Shown here: positions 7,253 to 35,889 of the stretch, in pieces
Layout of the letters: each line of letters starts with the position of its first letter
Position numbering within the stretch: the stretch's first letter is position 1
From: a virus
Length of the DNA stretch: 36,077 nucleotides
IMG/VR virus record: IMGVR_UViG_3300030117_002665
Span: 1-36,077 of that record
Reading direction: 5' to 3' (one strand)
The notes under the pieces: generated by a model
Told to the model about the DNA's origin: nothing
Databases searched by the model: none
Seen by the model: the letters and a program-made list of their open reading frames with translations, nothing else
Translations under genes and position numbers: made by a program

Positions 7253-7555
7253 TTAAGAAACTCCTTTCTTTGTTGCCAAGTAAAACGCACCACAGCTGTT
7301 GAAGATTTCGTAGCCGGTGAAGTCGTCGTTATCAAAACTGTTAAAGTAATCTCTGCTTTGACCTACAAACCAAGCACCCTCAATACCAAGTGTGTATTGT
7401 TCGTTTCTGTCACTAGCTGTTGCTTTGTGAAAGCCGTTGTTGACTTCCATGCAGCAATCGTACATTCCATCAAATTTTGATCTGACCTTGATGTAAAGTT
7501 TGTCTTTGTTTTTTCTGATAAAACTTTTAATTGTTGATTTTGTAATCTTAGCCAT
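7253..7555 (-). CDS. Hypothetical phage protein
   Basis: 100 residues, ATG at 7555 overlapping the TAA of the DpdA-like gene (TAATG) and preceded by AAAGGAG. The basic N-terminus (TKSTIKSFIRKNKDKLYIKV) leads into a compact region with DGMYDCCMEV and a Phe/Asp/Asn-rich end. I recall related sequences in other phages but no function. Confidence 0.6.
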   Translation of the reverse strand: MAKITKSTIKSFIRKNKDKLYIKVRSKFDGMYDCCMEVNNGFHKATASDRNEQYTLGIEGAWFVGQSRDYFNSFDNDDFTGYEIFNSCGAFYLATKKGVS

Positions 7556-8328
7556 TAAGCGGCTCCTTTCTGAGTTGCGATATTGAACAAGGGAAGATCA
7601 TCCAATATCTTGTGATTAACTTTAGCTGCCAACCTATCGGCAAACTGTTTAACGTGATGGACCATGCTGTGTTTTTTGTAACAATGGTTCATCGCAATGT
7701 TGCAGCTGTCAGCGCTATCAAATCCGATCTTGTGCAACACTCCCAAACCTCTCATCATGTGGATCCAGGGTCTATTTGCTATTCCGTAATTTGCATCCCA
7801 ATAATCCATGTGGGCGAAAGTCTCTTTTATCTTGTTGTAATATTTGCTGTCGTTTCCGTTCTTGGCGATGTCTACGTCCGCGCAGCTGCCGAAACCTACG
7901 AAATTAAATAATCTGTAAAGTTTCTTTAACTGATCCAAACTCTCATTCATGTGCCATATTGCCATCGCTCTCTCTGGATATTTGATTTTGTCGTTGTGTA
8001 TCGCATCTGAAATCAAAGCCATGTTCTCAACCTCGCTACCGCCGATCACGTCCGGTATCACACAAACAGCCTGGTCGCATCGATCCATCGCTGCGTTTGC
8101 CCAGCTGTAAAAACCATCCCACCAGGCAGCATCCAATGTGATTCCTTTCTTCCAAGCAGTAAAAGCGCCATTGTCCAGGATCAAGATCTGATCTTTACCA
8201 ACCAGGTCAATGCAATCGTCAAGCTGTTCGGGGTGCATGTAGCTGACACAAAAGCTGTGTCCTTTCAGCTGCTTTAAATATCTCTTAGGAGTGATTGGTG
8301 TGCCATGAACTAACCTTTTTCCGCTCAT
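7555..8328 (-). CDS. TGT-like TIM-barrel protein, probable DpdA-type deazaguanine transglycosylase
   Basis: 257 residues from ATG at 8328, chosen because AAAGGAG lies just upstream; an in-frame ATG at 8391 has no RBS. Motifs resemble tRNA-guanine transglycosylase and its DNA-acting relative DpdA: LILDNGAF (49-56, cf. DSGGFQ), VIPDV (90-94, cf. the base-binding Asp loop), FVGFGSCAD (143-151, cf. the GG-glycine loop) and GFDSADSCN (202-210, with Asp204 or Asp207 in the place of the nucleophile). DpdA swaps guanine in DNA for a 7-deazaguanine. I see no preQ0 synthesis genes, so it would need host-made precursor. The fold relation is inferred by eye. Confidence 0.55.
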   Translation of the reverse strand: MSGKRLVHGTPITPKRYLKQLKGHSFCVSYMHPEQLDDCIDLVGKDQILILDNGAFTAWKKGITLDAAWWDGFYSWANAAMDRCDQAVCVIPDVIGGSEVENMALISDAIHNDKIKYPERAMAIWHMNESLDQLKKLYRLFNFVGFGSCADVDIAKNGNDSKYYNKIKETFAHMDYWDANYGIANRPWIHMMRGLGVLHKIGFDSADSCNIAMNHCYKKHSMVHHVKQFADRLAAKVNHKILDDLPLFNIATQKGAA

Positions 8329-8428
8329 TCTGGCTCCTTTCTCGTTGTTTCTCTTGGGGGGGTTTTTCGAATCACTTGATCCGTTCTTCATTATTATTGA
8401 CTCAATTCGTCAATGATTGCAAGTAAAA

Positions 8429-8443
8429 TAACAGAATGTGTTA
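8429..8443. promoter_or_regulatory. Operator-like palindrome TAACA-N5-TGTTA, copy 1
   Basis: TAACAGAATGTGTTA lies in the gap before the DpdA-like unit. The same arms and 5-bp centre recur at 10763-10777 and 11742-11756. Read leftward a weak -10-like TATTTT overlaps its end. Nearby, at about 8396-8414, is a second palindrome, ATTGAC-N7-GTCAAT on the minus strand. Confidence 0.6.
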
Positions 8444-8450
8444 CAAATAA

Positions 8451-8479
8451 CTTAAAAAGAACAGCGCCGGAGCGCTGTT
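8451..8479 (-). terminator. Rho-independent terminator of the recombination operon
   Basis: AACAGCGC at 8460-8467 and GCGCTGTT at 8472-8479 form an 8-bp perfect stem with loop CGGA, the same tetraloop and core as the terminator at 6397. Leftward it is followed by TTCTTTTTAAG. It separates the exonuclease/annealing unit from the DpdA-like unit. Confidence 0.8.
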
Positions 8480-8494
8480 AGTTGGTGATATATG

Positions 8495-8710
8495 TTAGTT
8501 TAAATTGGCTCCCAAGCGTTTCAATTCATGTCGAGCCAGGTAGGTTGTTCGTCCGCTCTTGTGAATTTCATAGTCACCGCTTGCTAGGATCCGGCGCAGT
8601 TTCATGTAAGCAGCTGGTTTGCTCAGATCCGGAAACAGCAGCGCTCCAGCCTCGGTCACAGTATAGAGCGATTTACCAAGATGGTTTGTCGTCATTTCCA
8701 CTATTGTCAT
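8495..8710 (-). CDS. Winged-helix/MerR-like small DNA-binding protein
   Basis: 71 residues from ATG at 8710; a further in-frame ATG at 8695 and a longer TTG start at 8743 are alternatives, none with a strong RBS. The core LYTVTEAGALLFPDLSKPAAYMKL then RTTYLARHELKRLG resembles excisionase or winged-helix DNA-binding domains that end in a short wing and a final helix. It overlaps the upstream gene. It could be an excisionase or an early regulator. Confidence 0.5.
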   Translation of the reverse strand: MTIVEMTTNHLGKSLYTVTEAGALLFPDLSKPAAYMKLRRILASGDYEIHKSGRTTYLARHELKRLGANLN

Positions 8711-9089
8711 TTTCTTTATCCCATTCTGGAGGTGTATCAGCAAAACTTTGGTTTCTCATTTCCTCTGGTACATCGAGGAATAGGAGAGGGCGCTCGATAA
8801 CTGTCCAGGGATCCCCAGGTCCAGCTTTCTCCTTAATGCTCATACCTAACTGCATCTGGCAGTTGTCGCCATGCGTTACAGCTGCCTCTCGTAAGGCTGC
8901 CATTAGGTTAGCTATCGCTTTTCTCTGTTCAGCTGATTGCGGCAGCGGTTTTCCCTCTGGATCTCTAGCTGTCTTAAATTGCAGCCATGCAGCTGCTTGA
9001 TATTCCACGTCCGATTTCAATCCGGAAAGCATCTTAAACTTTCCATTTCCGAAATGTGGTCGTTGTCCTGGCATTTTAATCTTATCCAT
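8673..9089 (-). CDS. Hypothetical recombination-module protein with acidic tail
   Basis: 138 residues with GGAGC before ATG. The middle is helical (SAEQRKAIANLMAALREAA), then LLFLDVPEEMR, and the C-terminus is acidic and ends DDKPSW. Acidic tails ending in an aromatic residue resemble those of single-strand DNA-binding proteins (DDDIPF in SSB), but I cannot recognise an OB fold. It overlaps the annealing-protein gene upstream and the small gene downstream, so it belongs to the recombination operon. Confidence 0.5.
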   Translation of the reverse strand: MDKIKMPGQRPHFGNGKFKMLSGLKSDVEYQAAAWLQFKTARDPEGKPLPQSAEQRKAIANLMAALREAAVTHGDNCQMQLGMSIKEKAGPGDPWTVIERPLLFLDVPEEMRNQSFADTPPEWDKENDNSGNDDKPSW

Positions 9090-9786
9090 TTAATATTTGC
9101 TCCTCTCTTAGTTCATAAAAAGCCTTTACCTTTGCAGCAGCTGACTCATCCAGCTTTTTTAAAGATAAATAATTTTTCTGGTTTTCCTTAAATATTATGT
9201 TCATGCGTTCTACGCTTTTTGCTCGCTCAAACTTTTCGATAAACCACTGCGCGCATTTCGTAGCCGGATCCTCCCCAAAAACGTCACTATCATCACGCAA
9301 GGTTTCCAGGATATCTGCCTCCTCTGGATCTTCTTTCGGTGGATCCTTGGGTTTTTTCTCAGCTGCTTTTTTCTCAGCTGTATTTAATTCAATCTTTGCA
9401 TCCTTTAATTGAGCCACCTCGATCTCGAAATCGCTGGCAAATTCACCGCCATGCAAGCCAAGATTGGCAAGTGCTCGACCAATCGCCGAGGTTTCGCCGT
9501 TCTCAATCGCTGACGTTTTGTTTACATTACTGCTACCGCGTATTTCTTCAGCTATGCCGGTCGCTACCGGTCGATCTGAGTTAGGCGGATATATTTCAGC
9601 TACGACAATTACGCGCTTTGCATCGTCTACTGTTACTCTGGTGTTTACGGAATAGTCCGGAAAATGCTTTCTAAATACTTCAATGCGTACTGCAACAGTT
9701 GTGTATTTTTTATTTCCTCGTACAACAACTCCCTCTGCATTTAGTTTGCTAATATCCTCCATTGCTGCGTGCAGCTGATCTTTCAT
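9082..9786 (-). CDS. Probable single-strand annealing protein (Rad52/ERF-like)
   Basis: 234 residues. The N-terminal 130 residues are compact with alternating strands (TVAVRIEVFRKHFPDYSVNTRV) and the block ENGETSAIGRALANLGLHG at about 96-114, typical of phage annealing or ssDNA-binding recombination proteins. A Lys/Pro/Glu-rich linker (KKAAEKKPKDPPKEDPEEAD) follows and then a helical C-terminus. It directly follows the exonuclease gene with an ATGA overlap, which supports a two-component exonuclease-annealase system. The exact superfamily is uncertain. Confidence 0.6.
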   Translation of the reverse strand: MKDQLHAAMEDISKLNAEGVVVRGNKKYTTVAVRIEVFRKHFPDYSVNTRVTVDDAKRVIVVAEIYPPNSDRPVATGIAEEIRGSSNVNKTSAIENGETSAIGRALANLGLHGGEFASDFEIEVAQLKDAKIELNTAEKKAAEKKPKDPPKEDPEEADILETLRDDSDVFGEDPATKCAQWFIEKFERAKSVERMNIIFKENQKNYLSLKKLDESAAAKVKAFYELREEQILNG

Positions 9787-10688
9787 TTGAAACTCCTTTT
9801 AGCTAATTCGATTAATTCTGGTTGTAGGTTCCAGGCAAACATGTGATCCCACTCTGGGTCCAGCGATCGAAAGAGATCCTCCTGGTTGTCTGCCTTTTTT
9901 AATAAATGCTCGGTAGTTTGATGATGCCTCGCCATCTGCTGCACAATTCGATCAAGGTTCTCATCACTTAATTCCGGAGAGTTGTCCTGGTCAAAAATTC
10001 TATATTCTTTATGATTGGCGCAAACAAGGAACGGCGGCTGCTGTCCATTAAGCGCCCAAAAGCCAGCAATCTGATAAAGCCAGCTTTTCTCAAACATACC
10101 GGATAAATTTTTCGGAACGTAAGAAGATTTCTTTAAGCTGCTCCATTTAGTTTTCAGATCTCCACGTCTTGCATAGTCCGGTTTGGTTTGGTGCGGCAAT
10201 TCACAACCTGGCAACTTATCTTCGAGTGTAATTTCTCCGATATATTTGTTCTCTCTTGCCATCGCTTTCTCTAATCCCTCGACCGAGTTCTTAATTACGT
10301 CGCCAATTAGCGTTTTGTAGACCTCGACAAGCATTTCGTCCTCTTCACCGACGTTTTCCCCTAAAAAATAGCGACTTTGAAAAAATAGACCCTCAGATTT
10401 CGCCCAGGAGACCGCTTCGTCGAGTTTCATGGGTTCTGATCCATCAATATTTAACACGCTGTCTACAGCCTTTTGAACGGCATTTCCGGCGATTGCGCTT
10501 GGACCGGTTGCTCGATTGGGGTTTAATAACTCCCATTGCTCTTTATCGCTTAAAAAGAGGTCAGATAACAGCGGTCGGAGCACAATTTTCTCCCACAGCT
10601 TTTTCCCTCTCGGTGCTGTCATTGGATTACTATGGTGATAGTAATTAAATCGTAGTGCGTACTCTGGTGTCAGCTGTGGCAGCGGCAT
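9783..10688 (-). CDS. PD-(D/E)XK exonuclease (YqaJ/RecB/Cas4-like)
   Basis: 301 residues. The nuclease core is readable: an acidic region at 115-125, then KPDYARRGDLKTKW with Asp171 and Asp177-x-Lys179 as the PD-DXK pair, and Gln206 in YQIAGFW in the usual downstream position. It probably resects double-stranded ends for the annealing protein encoded next. First gene of a leftward unit whose promoter at 10759-10788 contains an operator-like palindrome. The RBS is GGGAGA before ATG at 10688. The leader carries a strong stem. Confidence 0.75.
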   Translation of the reverse strand: MPLPQLTPEYALRFNYYHHSNPMTAPRGKKLWEKIVLRPLLSDLFLSDKEQWELLNPNRATGPSAIAGNAVQKAVDSVLNIDGSEPMKLDEAVSWAKSEGLFFQSRYFLGENVGEEDEMLVEVYKTLIGDVIKNSVEGLEKAMARENKYIGEITLEDKLPGCELPHQTKPDYARRGDLKTKWSSLKKSSYVPKNLSGMFEKSWLYQIAGFWALNGQQPPFLVCANHKEYRIFDQDNSPELSDENLDRIVQQMARHHQTTEHLLKKADNQEDLFRSLDPEWDHMFAWNLQPELIELAKRSFK

Positions 10689-10703
10689 GTTTATCTCCCT
10701 GGT

Positions 10704-10753
10704 ACGCGCCGCTGTAATTCTGAGTCATATTAAAACAAGGAAATGCGGCGCGT
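10704..10753 (-). repeat. 9-bp inverted repeat at the 5' end of the recombination transcript
   Basis: ACGCGCCGC at 10704-10712 and GCGGCGCGT at 10745-10753 are perfect inverse copies with a 32-base loop. With the -10 box at 10759-10764, transcription would start near 10753, the first base of the stem. The transcript would thus begin with a GC-rich stem, ahead of the RBS. It could stabilise the mRNA or gate translation. Confidence 0.6.
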
Positions 10754-10758
10754 TCTGA

Positions 10759-10788
10759 AAGATAACAATAATTGTTATTATGGGTCAA
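10759..10788 (-). promoter_or_regulatory. Promoter of the recombination operon with operator in its spacer
   Basis: Read leftward: TTGACC at 10788-10783, 18-base spacer, TATCTT at 10764-10759. The palindrome ATAACAATAATTGTTAT (10762-10778, containing TAACA-N5-TGTTA) fills the spacer, so a bound repressor would block polymerase. Lies between the repressor gene and the exonuclease gene. Confidence 0.6.
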
Positions 10789-10821
10789 CAACTAAATCAA
10801 GGTATTGATCGAAATCTCAAT

Positions 10822-11586
10822 CTAATGATCTTTTACAATCTCAAATCCCCAGGATTCCGGATCGTAAAGCATCATGCCAGCTGGTGTTGCCCATTCGAGT
10901 TCGACTTTGTTGTAATTCTTTTGCAATGGTTCGTGATCGTCGAGAGTTGTGGGATAGGTAATTTTTTTTCCCTGGTAACTGCTTACTATCGCGGTCATGC
11001 GCCTAATGGTATAGGTTTCAAAGTCTGAATTTTCAAACGGATATCCCACAATTATTGGACTACCATCTAAATTAAGTCTTTTTGAGTTTTTAATTTTGCA
11101 GATACTAGGTTGACCAATACATTGCTCGTGAACATATTTTTTCTCAATCGGTTTTTTATTAACAATACAGATGGCATTTTTCTTTTTTGCAAACCACTTT
11201 GGCACAAAATAAGCGCCGTGATTCTCAGTAAAGTTAAAAGGACCAGCTAGATAAACACGTTTTGATTCGTCCTCGCCATACATGTGCAGCACTCCGTCAT
11301 TCGTCATTTCTCCCATGATAGGACACATGCTGCGTTTAAAGAGTATTTCTTCGGCTGTGCAGTTTAAAATTTTTGAGTATTTAATAGCATCATCAATACT
11401 TATATTTTGTCTGCCGTTTAAATGTCTTGATACAGTTTCGGGTCGAAATCCCATCTGTTTAGCTATCTCAACACCGGAGAGGTTAGCTTTTCTTGCTAAG
11501 TTTTTAAGGTTTGATACGCTTTGTACTTCTGACATATTGTCTATTTCTAGTCCATTTGAGTTACAGTTAAATAAGGTTCCGTTCAT
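10822..11586 (-). CDS. Phage repressor (HTH_3/XRE-type, CI-like)
   Basis: 254 residues, ATG at 11586 with AGGAGG. The helix-turn-helix lies at about 26-82: NLARKANLSGVEIAKQMGF, then RPETVSRHLNGRQNISIDDA. The C-terminal 160 residues start PIMGEMTNDGVLHMYGE, reminiscent of the linker before an S24 domain, but I do not see the Ser-Met or Lys motifs of LexA-type self-cleavage. Transcribed opposite to the Cro-like gene across the palindrome-rich switch region. Likely maintains lysogeny by binding TAACA-N5-TGTTA operators (inferred). Confidence 0.75.
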   Translation of the reverse strand: MNGTLFNCNSNGLEIDNMSEVQSVSNLKNLARKANLSGVEIAKQMGFRPETVSRHLNGRQNISIDDAIKYSKILNCTAEEILFKRSMCPIMGEMTNDGVLHMYGEDESKRVYLAGPFNFTENHGAYFVPKWFAKKKNAICIVNKKPIEKKYVHEQCIGQPSICKIKNSKRLNLDGSPIIVGYPFENSDFETYTIRRMTAIVSSYQGKKITYPTTLDDHEPLQKNYNKVELEWATPAGMMLYDPESWGFEIVKDH

Positions 11587-11704
11587 AACGACCTCCTTTT
11601 CTTGGAGATCCGGTAGGCTGGTTTACCCAAATCTTTGCGCCTATTTTGTTAGAAAGAAATAACTTTAATCCTCTCTTTTTTTTTAAGCAGAATATAACAA
11701 ACAT
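11567..11704 (-). CDS. Possible small basic ORF ahead of the repressor
   Basis: 45 residues from ATG at 11704 to TAA at 11567-11569, overlapping the repressor start in another frame. GGAGG sits 7 bases upstream. The product is hydrophobic then basic (MFVIFCLKKKRGLKLF, ending PRKGGRYERNLI). The ATG lies inside the -10 box of the best leftward promoter (11703-11732), so translation would need a transcript starting further upstream. It may be fortuitous. Confidence 0.25.
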   Translation of the reverse strand: MFVIFCLKKKRGLKLFLSNKIGAKIWVNQPTGSPRKGGRYERNLI

Positions 11705-11732
11705 AATATTTCCTCCTATCAAGTAATGTCAA
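11703..11732 (-). promoter_or_regulatory. Leftward promoter of the repressor gene
   Basis: Read leftward: TTGACA at 11732-11727, 18-base spacer, TATTAT at 11708-11703. This is the strongest promoter match in the switch region, giving a leader of about 110 bases before the repressor ATG. Its -35 overlaps the TCAATCATATTGG site (11729-11741). Confidence 0.65.
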
Positions 11733-11741
11733 TCATATTGG
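11729..11741. promoter_or_regulatory. Second operator-like site, TCAATCATATTGG
   Basis: Matches the perfect palindrome TCAATAATATTGA at 11858-11870 at 11 of 13 positions and overlaps the -35 of the repressor promoter. A Cro-type protein binding here would shut off the repressor. Confidence 0.45.
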
Positions 11742-11766
11742 TAACATAAAGTGTTACATTGATAAC
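11738..11766 (+). promoter_or_regulatory. Possible rightward early promoter with TAACA-N5-TGTTA operator
   Basis: TTGGTA at 11738-11743, 17-base spacer, GATAAC at 11761-11766. The palindrome GTAACATAAAGTGTTAC (11741-11757) fills the spacer, the same arrangement as at the recombination promoter. The operator is well supported; the promoter boxes are weaker. Confidence 0.5.
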
Positions 11767-11779
11767 CACAGTATAGACC

Positions 11780-11818
11780 TTTATTTATAAGTCAAATTAA
11801 ATTGCATTTATAAATAAA
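11780..11818. repeat. 11-bp inverted repeat in the switch region
   Basis: TTTATTTATAA at 11780-11790 and TTATAAATAAA at 11808-11818 are perfect inverse copies separated by 17 bases, which spaces their centres 28 bp apart. All A/T, so chance is possible, but it adds to the palindrome cluster. A perfect ATATTGCAATAT palindrome follows at 11821-11832. No gene other than the small ORF above is seen at 11587-11916. Confidence 0.5.
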
Positions 11819-11857
11819 ATATATTGCAATATGTATATTATAACTTAATCTGTTAAA

Positions 11858-11870
11858 TCAATAATATTGA
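11858..11870. promoter_or_regulatory. Palindrome TCAATAATATTGA near the cro-like gene
   Basis: Perfect 13-bp palindrome 46 bp before the Cro-like start. Half-sites TATTGAT recur just downstream, near 11901. Candidate operator for the Cro-like protein or repressor. Confidence 0.5.
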
Positions 11871-11916
11871 TCCAAAGGTTGATTGTATTGTTGATTTGAC
11901 TATTGATAGGTGATTT

Positions 11917-15351: not shown

Positions 15352-15568
15352 ATGGTTCCGCAAGCAACAAGAGAACAAGCAACTGCATAGGGATTTTATG
15401 CTGCGGCAATTTAGGCAAGAATTAGAGAAATATGGAAATAAAGATACCATACGCGCCGAGAAAGGTGCAGCAAGAACTACACAATCAGCTGGACAAACAC
15501 CGGTGGGCGGTAGTGGTAATGCACCGAAGAGCCGGCAAAACAGTAATGGCGATCAATCATCTTCTTAG
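15320..15568 (+). CDS. Possible small ORF overlapping terL
   Basis: Open frame of 82 residues from TTG at 15320, with no RBS. The part before terL (KTAEWFRKQQENKQLHRDF, MLRQFRQELEKYG) looks like a genuine helix and fills the only gap between DUF3310 and terL. From 15432 it shares DNA with the terL start and becomes Gly/Ser/Gln-rich and unstructured. It may be a real small gene running into terL, or a remnant. Confidence 0.3.
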   Translation: MNLKILGKTAEWFRKQQENKQLHRDFMLRQFRQELEKYGNKDTIRAEKGAARTTQSAGQTPVGGSGNAPKSRQNSNGDQSSS

Positions 15569-16700
15569 AGAGGCGGTATTGTGTGAGAAAAAAAGTCCAC
15601 GATATGCCTATATTGCGCCGACATACCGCCAGGCAAAGCAAGTAGCCTGGGATTATCTTAAACAATTTGCGGTAAATATACCGATGGCGCGCTTTCACGA
15701 AACGGAATTGCGCTGCGATCTGCCCAATGGTGCTCGAATACAGCTGTTGGGATCTGAAAATCCGGCGAGCTTGCGTGGAATTTATTTAGATATGGCGGTT
15801 TTGGACGAGATGGCGGATATGCCGGAGAACTTATTTCCGGAAGTTATCAGACCAGCTTTATCGGATCGTGAGGGAAAAGCATTATTTATTGGTACACCAA
15901 GAGGACACAATGCCTTTTTCGAATTATACGAGGCTGCAACGGCAGCAGATGATTGGTTTACAGCGACCTACAAGGCGAGTGAAACCGGGATATTACCTAA
16001 ATCCGAACTTGAGTCCGCGCGGATCGGCATGTCGGAGGATCAGTACAACCAGGAATATGAGTGCTCCTGGGTGGCGAATGTTCCAGGGTCTGTCTTTGGT
16101 AAGGAACTTCAGAAAGCCTTTCAAGATGGTAGAATTTCTAAGGTTCCGTATGATCCCTCTGTCCGTGTTGACACTTTTTGGGATCTTGGAGTCGGCGATT
16201 CGACAGCGATTTGGTGGGTCCAGGTCGTAGGGAGAGCGGTACATTTTATAGATTATTATGAGGCGAGAGGTGAGGGATTACCCCATTATGCCAGGGTGCT
16301 GCAAGAACGTGAGTATCTATACGATAGTCATTACGCACCACATGATATTGAGGTTAGAGAATTAGGATCCGGAAAGAGTAGGCGCGAGGTTGCCTGGGAT
16401 CTAGGGATAAATTTTCGTGTTGTTCCCAAACTACCTATTGATGATGGGATCCACGCAGCGCAGCTTTTGCTAGCACGATCCTGGTTTGATCGAGATAACT
16501 GTAAGAATGGATTAGAGGCATTAAGACAATATCATCGTGTCTATAACGAGCGAACACGATCATTTTCTAAAACAATAAAACACGATTGGTCCTCACATAG
16601 CGCCGATGCGTTTCGTTATGCGGCGGTAGGATTAAGAGAAAACAAGCGACAGTTTCAAGCACCACAGCAAACAGCGGTGAATGAATACCGCGTATTCTAG
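15432..16700 (+). CDS. terL: Terminase large subunit
   Basis: 422 residues. ATPase: Walker A HRRAGKT at 31-37, Walker B MAVLDE at 121-126, coupling motif GTPRG at 154-158. Nuclease: Asp251 in FWDLGVGDSTA, acidic residues around 275, and Asp392 in SHSADAFRYA. MEIKIPYAPRKVQQELH is the usual N-terminus, which fixes the start. It packages DNA into the prohead through the portal at 17513. Complete. Confidence 0.93.
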   Translation: MEIKIPYAPRKVQQELHNQLDKHRWAVVVMHRRAGKTVMAINHLLREAVLCEKKSPRYAYIAPTYRQAKQVAWDYLKQFAVNIPMARFHETELRCDLPNGARIQLLGSENPASLRGIYLDMAVLDEMADMPENLFPEVIRPALSDREGKALFIGTPRGHNAFFELYEAATAADDWFTATYKASETGILPKSELESARIGMSEDQYNQEYECSWVANVPGSVFGKELQKAFQDGRISKVPYDPSVRVDTFWDLGVGDSTAIWWVQVVGRAVHFIDYYEARGEGLPHYARVLQEREYLYDSHYAPHDIEVRELGSGKSRREVAWDLGINFRVVPKLPIDDGIHAAQLLLARSWFDRDNCKNGLEALRQYHRVYNERTRSFSKTIKHDWSSHSADAFRYAAVGLRENKRQFQAPQQTAVNEYRVF

Positions 16701-16709
16701 GAGAACAGC

Positions 16710-17279
16710 ATGAGTTTTTGGAGTGAATTGGTTAGCGCCATTACCGGTGGTGGTACAAATTTCGGACGAACTACCGGACCAGCTATACAAAGATTTTCCG
16801 ATAGCATGAAATTCAAAGAGCCTACCAGGTTAGATAGATTTTTAGCCGGACCCAATCAGACAGTAGATATGAGCGAAAAGGGTCGTAAGAAAAGATTTGA
16901 GGATAATGTTGCGTTAAATCAAGCTGAAATGACAAAGGTAGCGGATATGGTGGATCCGATGGGAGAGCGCACCGATCCTAATACCGGTCGATCTGTCAGA
17001 GAAACCAGGGGATATGAGCAGAAATCGGGCAGTACAGCTGCACCAAAAACAATGATGAGCGGATCTTCTACACCAGCGGCGGCTACTAAAACAGAGCCGA
17101 CACCGCCGGCAGCGCCTAAAACTGTAGGTGAAGATGCTACCAGCAGCGGTGAAATTGAGGATGAAGTGGATGCAAATAAAGGAAAAGGCAAGAAATCTAC
17201 AATTTTAACCAGCGCACAAGGGTTATTGAGTGAGGCTCCGACCAGGGGAAAGCGTAAATTAAAAGGTTTAATCGCGTGA
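16710..17279 (+). CDS. Conserved virion-region protein between terminase and portal
   Basis: 189 residues with AGGAGA upstream. Low-complexity Pro/Ala/Thr middle (PAAATKTEPTPPAAPKT) and a C-terminus STILTSAQGLLSEAPTRGKRKL, a motif I recall from proteins at this place in many podovirus-like genomes. Possibly a head or connector-associated protein; no enzymatic motif. Overlaps the next gene by GTGA. Confidence 0.6.
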   Translation: MSFWSELVSAITGGGTNFGRTTGPAIQRFSDSMKFKEPTRLDRFLAGPNQTVDMSEKGRKKRFEDNVALNQAEMTKVADMVDPMGERTDPNTGRSVRETRGYEQKSGSTAAPKTMMSGSSTPAAATKTEPTPPAAPKTVGEDATSSGEIEDEVDANKGKGKKSTILTSAQGLLSEAPTRGKRKLKGLIA

Positions 17280-17464
17280 AAGTACGAAAACCAAAGAATG
17301 CTGCTGGCTTAATGGGTCGAATTGCTAATCAACCTATTACCGGAATGTCCTCATCGATGGATATTGATCCTATGGAGCGGATGATGCAGCGCTTTGAGGG
17401 TCGAATGAAAGGCGGAAGTCCGCGAAAAAAGAAAAGAAAAACTATGATGCAAGGGAATTACTAA
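17276..17464 (+). CDS. Small basic protein, GTG start
   Basis: 62 residues from GTG at 17276 overlapping the previous TGA. Met- and Lys-rich (MERMMQRFEGRMKGGSPRKKKRKTMM). Could bind nucleic acid. The last base overlaps a 13-codon ORF. Confidence 0.5.
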   Translation: MKVRKPKNAAGLMGRIANQPITGMSSSMDIDPMERMMQRFEGRMKGGSPRKKKRKTMMQGNY

Positions 17465-17505
17465 TGCCAAAACCCTATAAAAAGCCAAAAAAACCAAGAA
17501 AGTAA
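17464..17505 (+). CDS. Possible micro-ORF, MPKPYKKPKKPRK
   Basis: 13 codons, ATG 17464, TAA 17503-17505, with AGGGA 7 bases upstream. All but three residues are Lys, Pro or Arg. It fills the gap before the portal start and could act as a coupling leader, since the portal lacks a clear RBS. Confidence 0.35.
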   Translation: MPKPYKKPKKPRK

Positions 17506-17512
17506 TGTCTTA

Positions 17513-19129
17513 ATGGATAAAATTTCACCATTAGTCGCCACATTGCACAAAAGATTTGAGTCTTTACAGACCCAAAGGAGCAATATTGAGCAGCGCTGGC
17601 AAGAGGTAGCTGACTATTTCTTACCCAGGAAAGCCGATATTGTACGAAAACGTGCAGCTGGTGAGCGAAAAGATCAAAAAATATTCGACTCCACGGCGCA
17701 ACATGCGGTCGAATTGCTAGCTGCGAACCTACACGGCACGCTTACCTCCCCTTCGGTGCCGTGGTTCGCTATGCGATTTAGAGATAAAGCGCTGCAAAAT
17801 GAGGATGCAGCGAATGAATGGCTGGAGATCTGCACGCAGCAGATGTACCAGGCGCTTGAGAGATCCAATTTTCAGCAAGAAATCCATGAATTATACTATG
17901 ATTTAGTGGTTTTTGGCACAGCTGCCCTGGCGATCGAGAAAGAAATTGGTCAAGATCTACGCTTTTCCACCAGGCATATTGCTGAGATTTACATAGCAGA
18001 AAATCATGAGGGAAGAGTCGATACAGTATTTCGTAAGTATGAGTTAACCGCACGACAAGCAGAGCAAAAGTTTGGGAAGAATAATCTATCGAATAGAATA
18101 AAAAAATCATTGGAGAACACTCCTTTAGATAAACATGCGATAATTAATGTTATTTACCCTAGAGGCGATACAGGCAAGACAACCGCAAAAGACAAACCTT
18201 TTGCATCTATTCACTACTGTTATGACAGTAAATATCTGATGCAAGAGAGCGGTTATGACTCAATGGTCCTGGCAACTCCCAGATTTACCAAGGATAGTTC
18301 TAGCGTTTACGGACACTCACCGGCACATACATGTCTAGCGGATGCCATGATGGTATCAAAGATGGCAGAAATTGGGATCAGAGCCGCACAAAAGCAGCTG
18401 GATCCGCCGTTAATGGTTCCGGATGATGGTTATGTCCTACCGGTAAGAACGACACCAGGAGCGCTTAATTTCTACAGATCTGGTTCCAGGGATAGAATAG
18501 AGCCGCTAAAAACAGATGCGAATAATTTATTGCAGCTTAATCAAGAGGAGCGACGACAAGAGCAGATCCGCCGGATCTTCTATGTTGACCAGCTATTAGC
18601 CTCTACAGATAAGACAATGACAGCAACACAAACGCTGCAAATGCAAGAAGAACGATTACGAATGTTAGGACCGGTGTTAGGGCGCTTGCAATCAGAGTTA
18701 CTACAACCCTTAATTTCAAGAACCTTTGAATTACTGCTTTCCCAGGGTGTTCTACCGCCGGCTCCCGACGAACTGCAAGGACAAGATATAGATATCGAGT
18801 ACGTTTCGCCGCTTGCTAAAGCACAAAAGATAGGTGATCTACAAAATCTAGTGCGCGGAGTAGAGATAATGACCAGCTTGGCAGAGGTTATTCCAGGGAT
18901 TACGGACTACATTGATAATGATGGATTGGTTCAGTACCTGGTTGAGATCACCGGAATGCCGGCAAGAGTGATTAGATCCGATCAAGAAGTGGCAGCGATG
19001 AGAAAAGAGCAGCAAGAGGCAGCCGCAGCGCAGCAATCACAAGAGCAAGATATGCAAAATTCAGAGCAAGCGCGTAATGTTGCGCCATTATTGCAAGCCT
19101 TACAAGCTAACCAGGGCGCGGCTGAATGA
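17513..19129 (+). CDS. Portal (head-to-tail connector) protein, podovirus type
   Basis: 538 residues, similar in length to T7 gp8. Conserved blocks: RWQEVADYFLPRKADI, KIFDSTAQHAVELLAANLHG, TSPSVPWFAMRF, FQQEIHELYYDLVVFGTAAL, GHSPAHTCLADAM and RIFYVDQLL. It forms the dodecameric ring through which terL packs DNA and to which the tail tubes bind. The Gln/Ala-rich C-terminus is typical. The stop overlaps the next gene. Confidence 0.9.
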   Translation: MDKISPLVATLHKRFESLQTQRSNIEQRWQEVADYFLPRKADIVRKRAAGERKDQKIFDSTAQHAVELLAANLHGTLTSPSVPWFAMRFRDKALQNEDAANEWLEICTQQMYQALERSNFQQEIHELYYDLVVFGTAALAIEKEIGQDLRFSTRHIAEIYIAENHEGRVDTVFRKYELTARQAEQKFGKNNLSNRIKKSLENTPLDKHAIINVIYPRGDTGKTTAKDKPFASIHYCYDSKYLMQESGYDSMVLATPRFTKDSSSVYGHSPAHTCLADAMMVSKMAEIGIRAAQKQLDPPLMVPDDGYVLPVRTTPGALNFYRSGSRDRIEPLKTDANNLLQLNQEERRQEQIRRIFYVDQLLASTDKTMTATQTLQMQEERLRMLGPVLGRLQSELLQPLISRTFELLLSQGVLPPAPDELQGQDIDIEYVSPLAKAQKIGDLQNLVRGVEIMTSLAEVIPGITDYIDNDGLVQYLVEITGMPARVIRSDQEVAAMRKEQQEAAAAQQSQEQDMQNSEQARNVAPLLQALQANQGAAE

Positions 19130-35529: not shown

Positions 35530-35889
35530 ATGGCAAATACTTTTAAGGTCGTATCGCATGATGTCATGCCGGCATCAGCTGGTACACCAGAGGATCTTTA
35601 CACTACACCAGGGAGTACAACGACAATCGTATTAGGATTGGTATTGTGTAACGTACACACGGCGCAAGTAACTGCTGACGTTAAACTTGTAAGTGATACA
35701 AGTGGAGGTGGTCGAGCAGCTACCAATACAACAACATTCTTAGCTAACGATATTCCCCTTGCAGTTGGGCAAAGCACAAGTGTCCTAATGGGAGCAAAGA
35801 TTGTTTTGGAAACTACAGACAAGATACAGATTGATTGCTCTGTTGCTGACAAGGTTTCCGTCACAATGTCAATTATGGAGATTACATAA
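35530..35889 (+). CDS. Minor tail/fibre-associated protein
   Basis: 119 residues with AGGAGG upstream. Beta-rich: VMPASAGTPEDLYTTPGSTTTIVLGLVLCN, VTADVKLVSDTS, FLANDIPLAVGQSTSVLMG, VSVTMSIMEIT. Proteins of this type lie after fibres in many environmental phages and are probably virion parts. The stop overlaps the next start (TAATG). Confidence 0.6.
   Translation: MANTFKVVSHDVMPASAGTPEDLYTTPGSTTTIVLGLVLCNVHTAQVTADVKLVSDTSGGGRAATNTTTFLANDIPLAVGQSTSVLMGAKIVLETTDKIQIDCSVADKVSVTMSIMEIT

Follow-up and report, generated by a model that had tools for sequence, protein, structure and literature searches.

Candidate operators of a CI-like repressor at four promoters of a marine temperate podophage

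The virus record IMGVR_UViG_3300030117_002665 of IMG/VR, a complete record of 36,077 bases (hereafter the window), carries in its early region a set of palindromes with TAAC and GTTA arms. The most probable reading (we put the probability at about 0.87) is that the phage's own CI-like immunity repressor uses these palindromes as operators, in a lambda-like dispersed-operator regulon of four sites at four promoters that would be silenced in lysogens. Related marine phages keep the palindromes where the repressor should switch off lytic, recombination and possible anti-restriction genes. An initial annotation of this DNA had proposed a repressor regulon that included a recombination unit and a DpdA-like unit, a proposal that now finds support in phylogenetic footprinting and in a natural operator swap among related phages.

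Palindromes in the control gaps of the early region

The initial annotation had reported three copies of the palindrome TAACA-N5-TGTTA. Exact matches are found at 8429-8443, 10763-10777 and 11742-11756, and a scan of the full window yields only these three, all within control gaps. Dinucleotide-shuffled versions of the window contain a mean of 0.055 copies, with 0/400 shuffles reaching three; likewise, when only the 566 bases of the three control gaps are shuffled, none of 3,000 trials reaches three exact copies. The claim that such a count lies far above chance is thus borne out for TAACA-N5-TGTTA itself, but not for any unspecified gapped 5+5 palindrome, since palindromes of this kind occur at three copies in most shuffles. 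The motif count alone is therefore a weak argument, and it is location and conservation that carry the case.

A fourth site, TAACTTAATCTGTTA, had escaped notice at 11841-11855. It departs from the motif at one letter in ten, has a perfect TAAC-N7-GTTA core and is kept in relatives. The fifth base also varies at other sites of two relatives (L014 and L042) with TAAC and GTTA kept, and the alignments identify TAAC-N7-GTTA as the true operator core. One further core in the window lies inside a coding region near 35,669. The four putative operators, designated O1 to O4 (Table 1), span 3.4 kb at four promoters.

Scanning viral contigs with the repressor sequence gave 25 loci, most of the protein being present in 23 of them (52-97% identity), and an alignment-based scan added more. 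Where a locus has this repressor type, exactly one TAAC-N7-GTTA core lies in the PL gap (28 of 28 cases) and exactly two lie in the cI-cro gap (23 of 23). Nearly all cores in these loci lie at the PR, repressor, PL or accessory promoters, or at equivalent promoter sites. That the palindromes arose by chance in AT-rich gaps would agree with the ease with which unspecified gapped palindromes reach three copies in shuffles; this explanation is vanishingly improbable, as the specific motif at 3/3 gaps never arises in gap shuffles and conservation in every locus of both sets, with variable centres, rules it out.

Promoters were assigned from conservation and consensus matching, and several hexamers are weak. 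The description of the palindrome at 10763 as filling the spacer of a promoter (TTGACC/TATCTT) proved correct: the spacer is 18 bases long and the arrangement is conserved in relatives. The rightward promoter proposed around the site at 11742 is not conserved, and that site lies just downstream of a leftward repressor promoter, a position from which autorepression is expected. A second, strong leftward promoter-like match (11732-11703, 11/12) was discarded: its -10 box runs into the start codon of a small leader open reading frame (ORF), and most relatives lack it. In many relatives the interval from the repressor promoter to the repressor gene holds a short ORF of about 40 amino acids (aa), which has a good ribosome site (about 11567-11705 on the minus strand; L014, L017, L022, L025).

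Operator change in sister phages

A scan with the 301-aa protein of the PL operon retrieved about 50 sister loci, whose repressors are homologous to that of the window but diverged, with 18-29% overall identity. TAAC-N7-GTTA occurs in 0/38 PL gaps and 2/36 cI-cro gaps of these sisters. Many of them carry TGAC-N7-GTCA at the homologous promoters, with identical spacing and one base changed per arm; perfect copies are present in 6 of 38 PL gaps and in 16 of 36 cI-cro gaps. In sister phages a homologue of the DpdA-like gene (73-75%) occupies the opposite genome arm, and in 8/8 of these the promoter of its operon has TGAC-N7-GTCA, the operator covering the -35 box and spacer. (A ninth sister locus, L114, has only a 33% DpdA-like homologue in a different context.) Two loci with the window's repressor type, L004 and L005, have an accessory-type promoter on the arm used by the sisters, under a TAAC operator. 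Taken together, these arrangements indicate that operator type follows repressor type and not genome position.

The same comparison bears on the idea that the palindromes are binding sites of a host regulator exploited by the phage. At homologous promoters of related phages the motif changes together with the phage repressor, and a host protein is a very improbable reader.

Two further observations were made in the sisters. In five of them (L103, L105, L117, L118, L122) cro lies directly beside the 301-aa gene and TGAC-N7-GTCA is still present at the DpdA-like promoter; no repressor homologue was found within the stretch fetched for these loci. In many sisters (L099, L092, L087, L095) a TAACGAGCTTCGTTA-like palindrome occupies a fixed place, about +2380 from the 301-aa gene, outside both control gaps.

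Table 1. Predicted features of the immunity region and neighbouring operons (window coordinates)
Feature	Coordinates	Strand	Position or detail	Basis
Putative operator O1, TAACATAAAGTGTTA	11742..11756		about +5 to +19 of leftward repressor transcript	exact motif; conserved in 23/23 relatives covering gap
Putative repressor promoter, TTGACT (11795-11790)-N16-TACTGT (11773-11768)	11768..11795	-		-35 box and spacing conserved; weak consensus match
Putative operator O4, TAACTTAATCTGTTA	11841..11855		core TAAC-N7-GTTA; overlaps -10 box of cro promoter	kept in all relatives covering site
Putative cro promoter PR, TTGCAA (11824-11829)-N16-TAATCT (11846-11851)	11824..11851	+		position conserved, N16-17 in relatives; weak consensus match
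Second palindrome, ATCAATAATATTGAT	11857..11871		beside O4	ATCAA-N5-TTGAT arms in nearly all relatives, centre variable
Putative operator O2, TAACAATAATTGTTA	10763..10777		in PL spacer	exact motif; core in 28/28 relatives
Predicted promoter PL, TTGACC (10788-10783)-N18-TATCTT (10764-10759)	10759..10788	-		promoter scan; TTGAC and TTATC kept in relatives
9-bp RNA hairpin	10704..10753	-	5' end of PL transcript, before ribosome site; arms 10753-10745 / 10712-10704	
First PL operon gene, 301 aa	9783..10688	-		always behind O2 in relatives
Remaining PL operon, proteins of 234, 138 and 82 aa	8495..9786	-		gene order conserved in relatives
Terminator-like hairpin, AACAGCGCTCCGGCGCTGTT-CTTTTT	8460..8479	-	end of PL operon, just before O3	terminator scan
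Putative operator O3, TAACAGAATGTGTTA	8429..8443		6 bp upstream of accessory -35 box	exact motif; before every accessory leader in this phage group
Predicted accessory promoter, TTGCAA (8422-8417)-N18-AATAAT (8398-8393)	8393..8422	-		promoter scan; conserved in accessory cassettes
Sister-type palindrome, TTGAC-N7-GTCAA	8397..8413		inside accessory promoter spacer, 31 bp from O3	
DpdA-like protein	7555..8328	-	first gene of accessory operon	PHROG 887, queuine tRNA-ribosyltransferase, 4.7e-28
CI-like repressor, 254 aa as listed	10822..11586	-		Pfam HTH_3, 1.1e-7; PHROG transcriptional repressor
Cro-like protein, 73 aa	11917..12138	+	divergent from repressor gene	weak HTH_3 match; position; in nearly all relatives covering it

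The PL operon and the accessory cassette

The leader hairpin of the PL transcript shows strong covariation in relatives: 98% of the aligned cells are paired, 6 pairs are changed on both sides, and 0/500 shuffles reach the score. A role in mRNA stability, translation or antitermination is possible; Rfam gave no match. The 301-aa product of the first PL gene has no match in Pfam, PHROG or NCBIfam, nor in the phage collection searched by tblastn, and the word recombination for this unit is a label taken over from the initial annotation. The terminator-like hairpin at the end of the operon separates it from O3, so that the accessory operon is probably a unit of its own.

At the accessory promoter, O3 is positioned upstream of the -35 element and not within the spacer. 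When the conserved leader downstream of O3 was searched for without bias, 18 copies came up in the phage group in addition to that of the window, some of them on previously known contigs. The exact operator is present 60-63 bp upstream of all 18 and is missing at two unrelated chance matches. In three phages the whole operator-promoter-leader cassette occurs more than once under the handles L018/L037, L027/L044 and L025/L035/L038, twice in each phage and each time before a different accessory gene. The first gene behind the cassette varies by phage, being the DpdA-like gene or encoding a protein of 186-193 aa or one of 150-172 aa.

Besides O3, the cassette contains a palindrome of the sister type. 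In the window's group, 17 different accessory promoters have TTGAC-N7-GTCAA in the spacer at a distance of 31 or 33 bp from O3; the arms are fixed and the centre varies. The search pattern for these 17 required both palindromes, and the unbiased leader scan gives a matching result. In the window's group this element may be read by the phage's own repressor with relaxed specificity, by Cro or by the repressor of a sister prophage. The last option would make the accessory promoter a two-key switch, with its own and sister-type operators, through which the accessory genes would be shut by both the phage's own repressor and that of a sister prophage. We offer this only tentatively and consider it unlikely.

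The location of O3 also allows an opposite effect, namely that repressor or Cro bound at about -50 activates accessory transcription in the lysogen. An upstream position relative to the -35 box is one from which lambda CI is able to activate, and O3 has this placement in 17/17 distinct cassettes. Lambda-type activation sites are centred near -42, as opposed to the position near -50 of O3, and in sister phages the operator of this module spans the -35 box and spacer, which is the geometry of repression. Activation is regarded as unlikely.

The DpdA-like protein, labelled from one PHROG family and without a Pfam match, probably starts at 8328 (MSGKRLV, after AGAAAGGAGCC), behind a good ribosome site, and not at the ORF start at 8391. 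DpdA inserts 7-deazaguanine into DNA, a class of modification that shields phage genomes against restriction; DpdA alone is encoded by many phages (PMC6884629). In a sister phage, the gene at L104:345-881, located behind a sister-type operator, matches an anti-restriction PHROG (6.7e-7) and scores 25.5 bits against Pfam ArdA, just below the cut-off of 27. The DpdA-like match and this ArdA-like gene together make a counter-restriction role of the accessory genes plausible.

The repressor, the Cro-like protein and known systems

The repressor may in fact begin at Met18, where most of the related sequences start. Its helix-turn-helix (HTH) occupies residues 27-81, with the recognition helix RPETVSRHLNG, and is followed by a C-terminal beta domain; the HTH is conserved in relatives. 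An AlphaFold2 model built from 38 sequences has a predicted local distance difference test (pLDDT) value of 79.8 and replaces an earlier, poor model from 12 sequences (pLDDT 54). The best Foldseek match to the model is the lambda-186 hybrid repressor (5.7e-6, whole chain, template modelling (TM) score below 0.35). Matches to HppE/MPnS enzymes, also of low TM score, probably reflect the layout of HTH and beta domain and were not used to assign function. Pfam detected no S24 (LexA-type) domain, and the 38-sequence alignment shows no invariant C-terminal Ser or Lys; RecA-driven self-cleavage is therefore unsupported. No repressor was found in genome contigs, and neither the repressor (tblastn) nor the region (blastn) matched the phage collection.

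In profile comparisons with solved structures, the repressor HTH is closest to the HigA antitoxin of P. vulgaris (4mcx/6chv; 5e-4), with which it shares the TVSR recognition motif. The TVSR arginine of HigA reads a YpG dinucleotide (PMC6987408), and the combination of TVSR in the repressor with TpG in the half-site TGTTA is compatible with a HigA-like reading of the operator. The repressor itself does not qualify as a HigA family member (TIGR02607 score of 22.3, against a cut-off of 47.7), and no toxin match was obtained among the neighbouring genes in Pfam or PHROG.

Might the sites belong mainly to the Cro-like protein, shutting early promoters at a late stage of lytic growth, with the repressor using sites elsewhere? 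Nearly every locus that covers the cro position, in either group, has kept the gene, a further conserved palindrome (ATCAA-N5-TTGAT) is present at PR, and lambda-type Cro proteins share their sites with CI. Against this, the change between TAAC and TGAC tracks the repressor clade, the repressor HTH suits a site of this kind, no other palindrome recurs at all four promoters, and O1 overlaps the start of the repressor transcript as expected for autoregulation. A main role for Cro thus appears quite unlikely. It is quite likely that repressor and Cro share the sites, which is compatible with assigning them to the repressor; the ATCAATAATATTGAT palindrome is possibly a Cro site.

Several points weigh against the repressor regulon as proposed. 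Perfect TGAC-N7-GTCA is missing from 32/38 sister PL gaps, and sisters of the IHG type have no clear operator motif in their PL and cI-cro gaps. The Fisher values of the comparison (3e-19 and 2e-14) overstate independence because loci within a group are related. The recognition helices are nearly alike in the two groups (RPETVSRHLNG in the window's group, RPETVSRHISG in the sisters), so that the A-to-G switch in the half-site must stem from residues outside the helix or be indirect. A centre near -50, upstream of the -35 box, is unusual for simple repression at O3. Finally, the Cro-like protein could be the binder of the sites or share them.

With these points in mind, the regulon can be pictured as follows. 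A repressor dimer would read TAAC-N7-GTTA through its lambda-type HTH. Bound to O1, at the start of its own transcript, it would repress its own synthesis; from O4, over the -10 box of PR, it would control the cro promoter; from O2, in the PL spacer, the recombination operon; and from O3, upstream of a separate accessory promoter, the DpdA-like operon. PR, PL and the accessory promoter would thus be held off in the lysogen and released together upon induction or infection. What the comparisons above establish is the sites, where they lie, how they are conserved and the match between operator type and repressor type; from these we infer that the repressor binds and represses, that it acts negatively at O3 and that the accessory genes counter restriction.

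This organization resembles that of lambda in the divergent repressor and cro genes with operators between them, in the PL operator at the recombination operon, in the HTH repressor and in the autoregulation site. It differs from lambda, which has operator triplets, in having two single sites about 100 bp apart, an extra accessory promoter with its own operator and a repressor C-terminus without a recognised S24 peptidase domain. The c1 operators of phage P1 likewise constitute a dispersed-operator regulon. The stoperators of L5-clade mycobacteriophages are asymmetric, numerous and dispersed (PMC6550527). With both systems the window phage has in common a single repressor for several separated, here putative, operators, and the existence of related phages with diverged repressor-operator pairs. 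Unlike the L5 stoperators, which stop elongation in transcribed regions, the window sites are symmetric, few and all at promoters.

In genome size and podovirus structural genes the window is similar to HTVC203P/Skadi-type pelagiphages; its terminase (region 15432-19129) is 56% identical to those of Pelagibacter podophages. It differs from these phages in its immunity region, for which neither tblastn nor blastn found a counterpart in the phage collection. The window has 42% G+C. As to the host, terminase matches in bacterial metagenome-assembled genomes do not exceed 55%, and no tRNA gene that might hint at an attachment site was found in the window.

Regulons of this type are already known, and it is the natural operator swap and the double-palindrome promoter that are worth testing. 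The sites described here map the candidate operators of the immunity region in a group of marine temperate podophages without match in the phage collection searched. With sister repressor clades that differ by one base per operator arm at homologous promoters, the way in which new immunity specificities evolve becomes open to direct experiment. The regulon further implies that lysogens would not express the possible counter-restriction genes, which would come on with lytic growth. If the accessory promoter were indeed to answer to two repressors, it would represent a built-in cross-immunity gate on counter-restriction genes, DpdA-like in this phage and ArdA-like in a sister phage.

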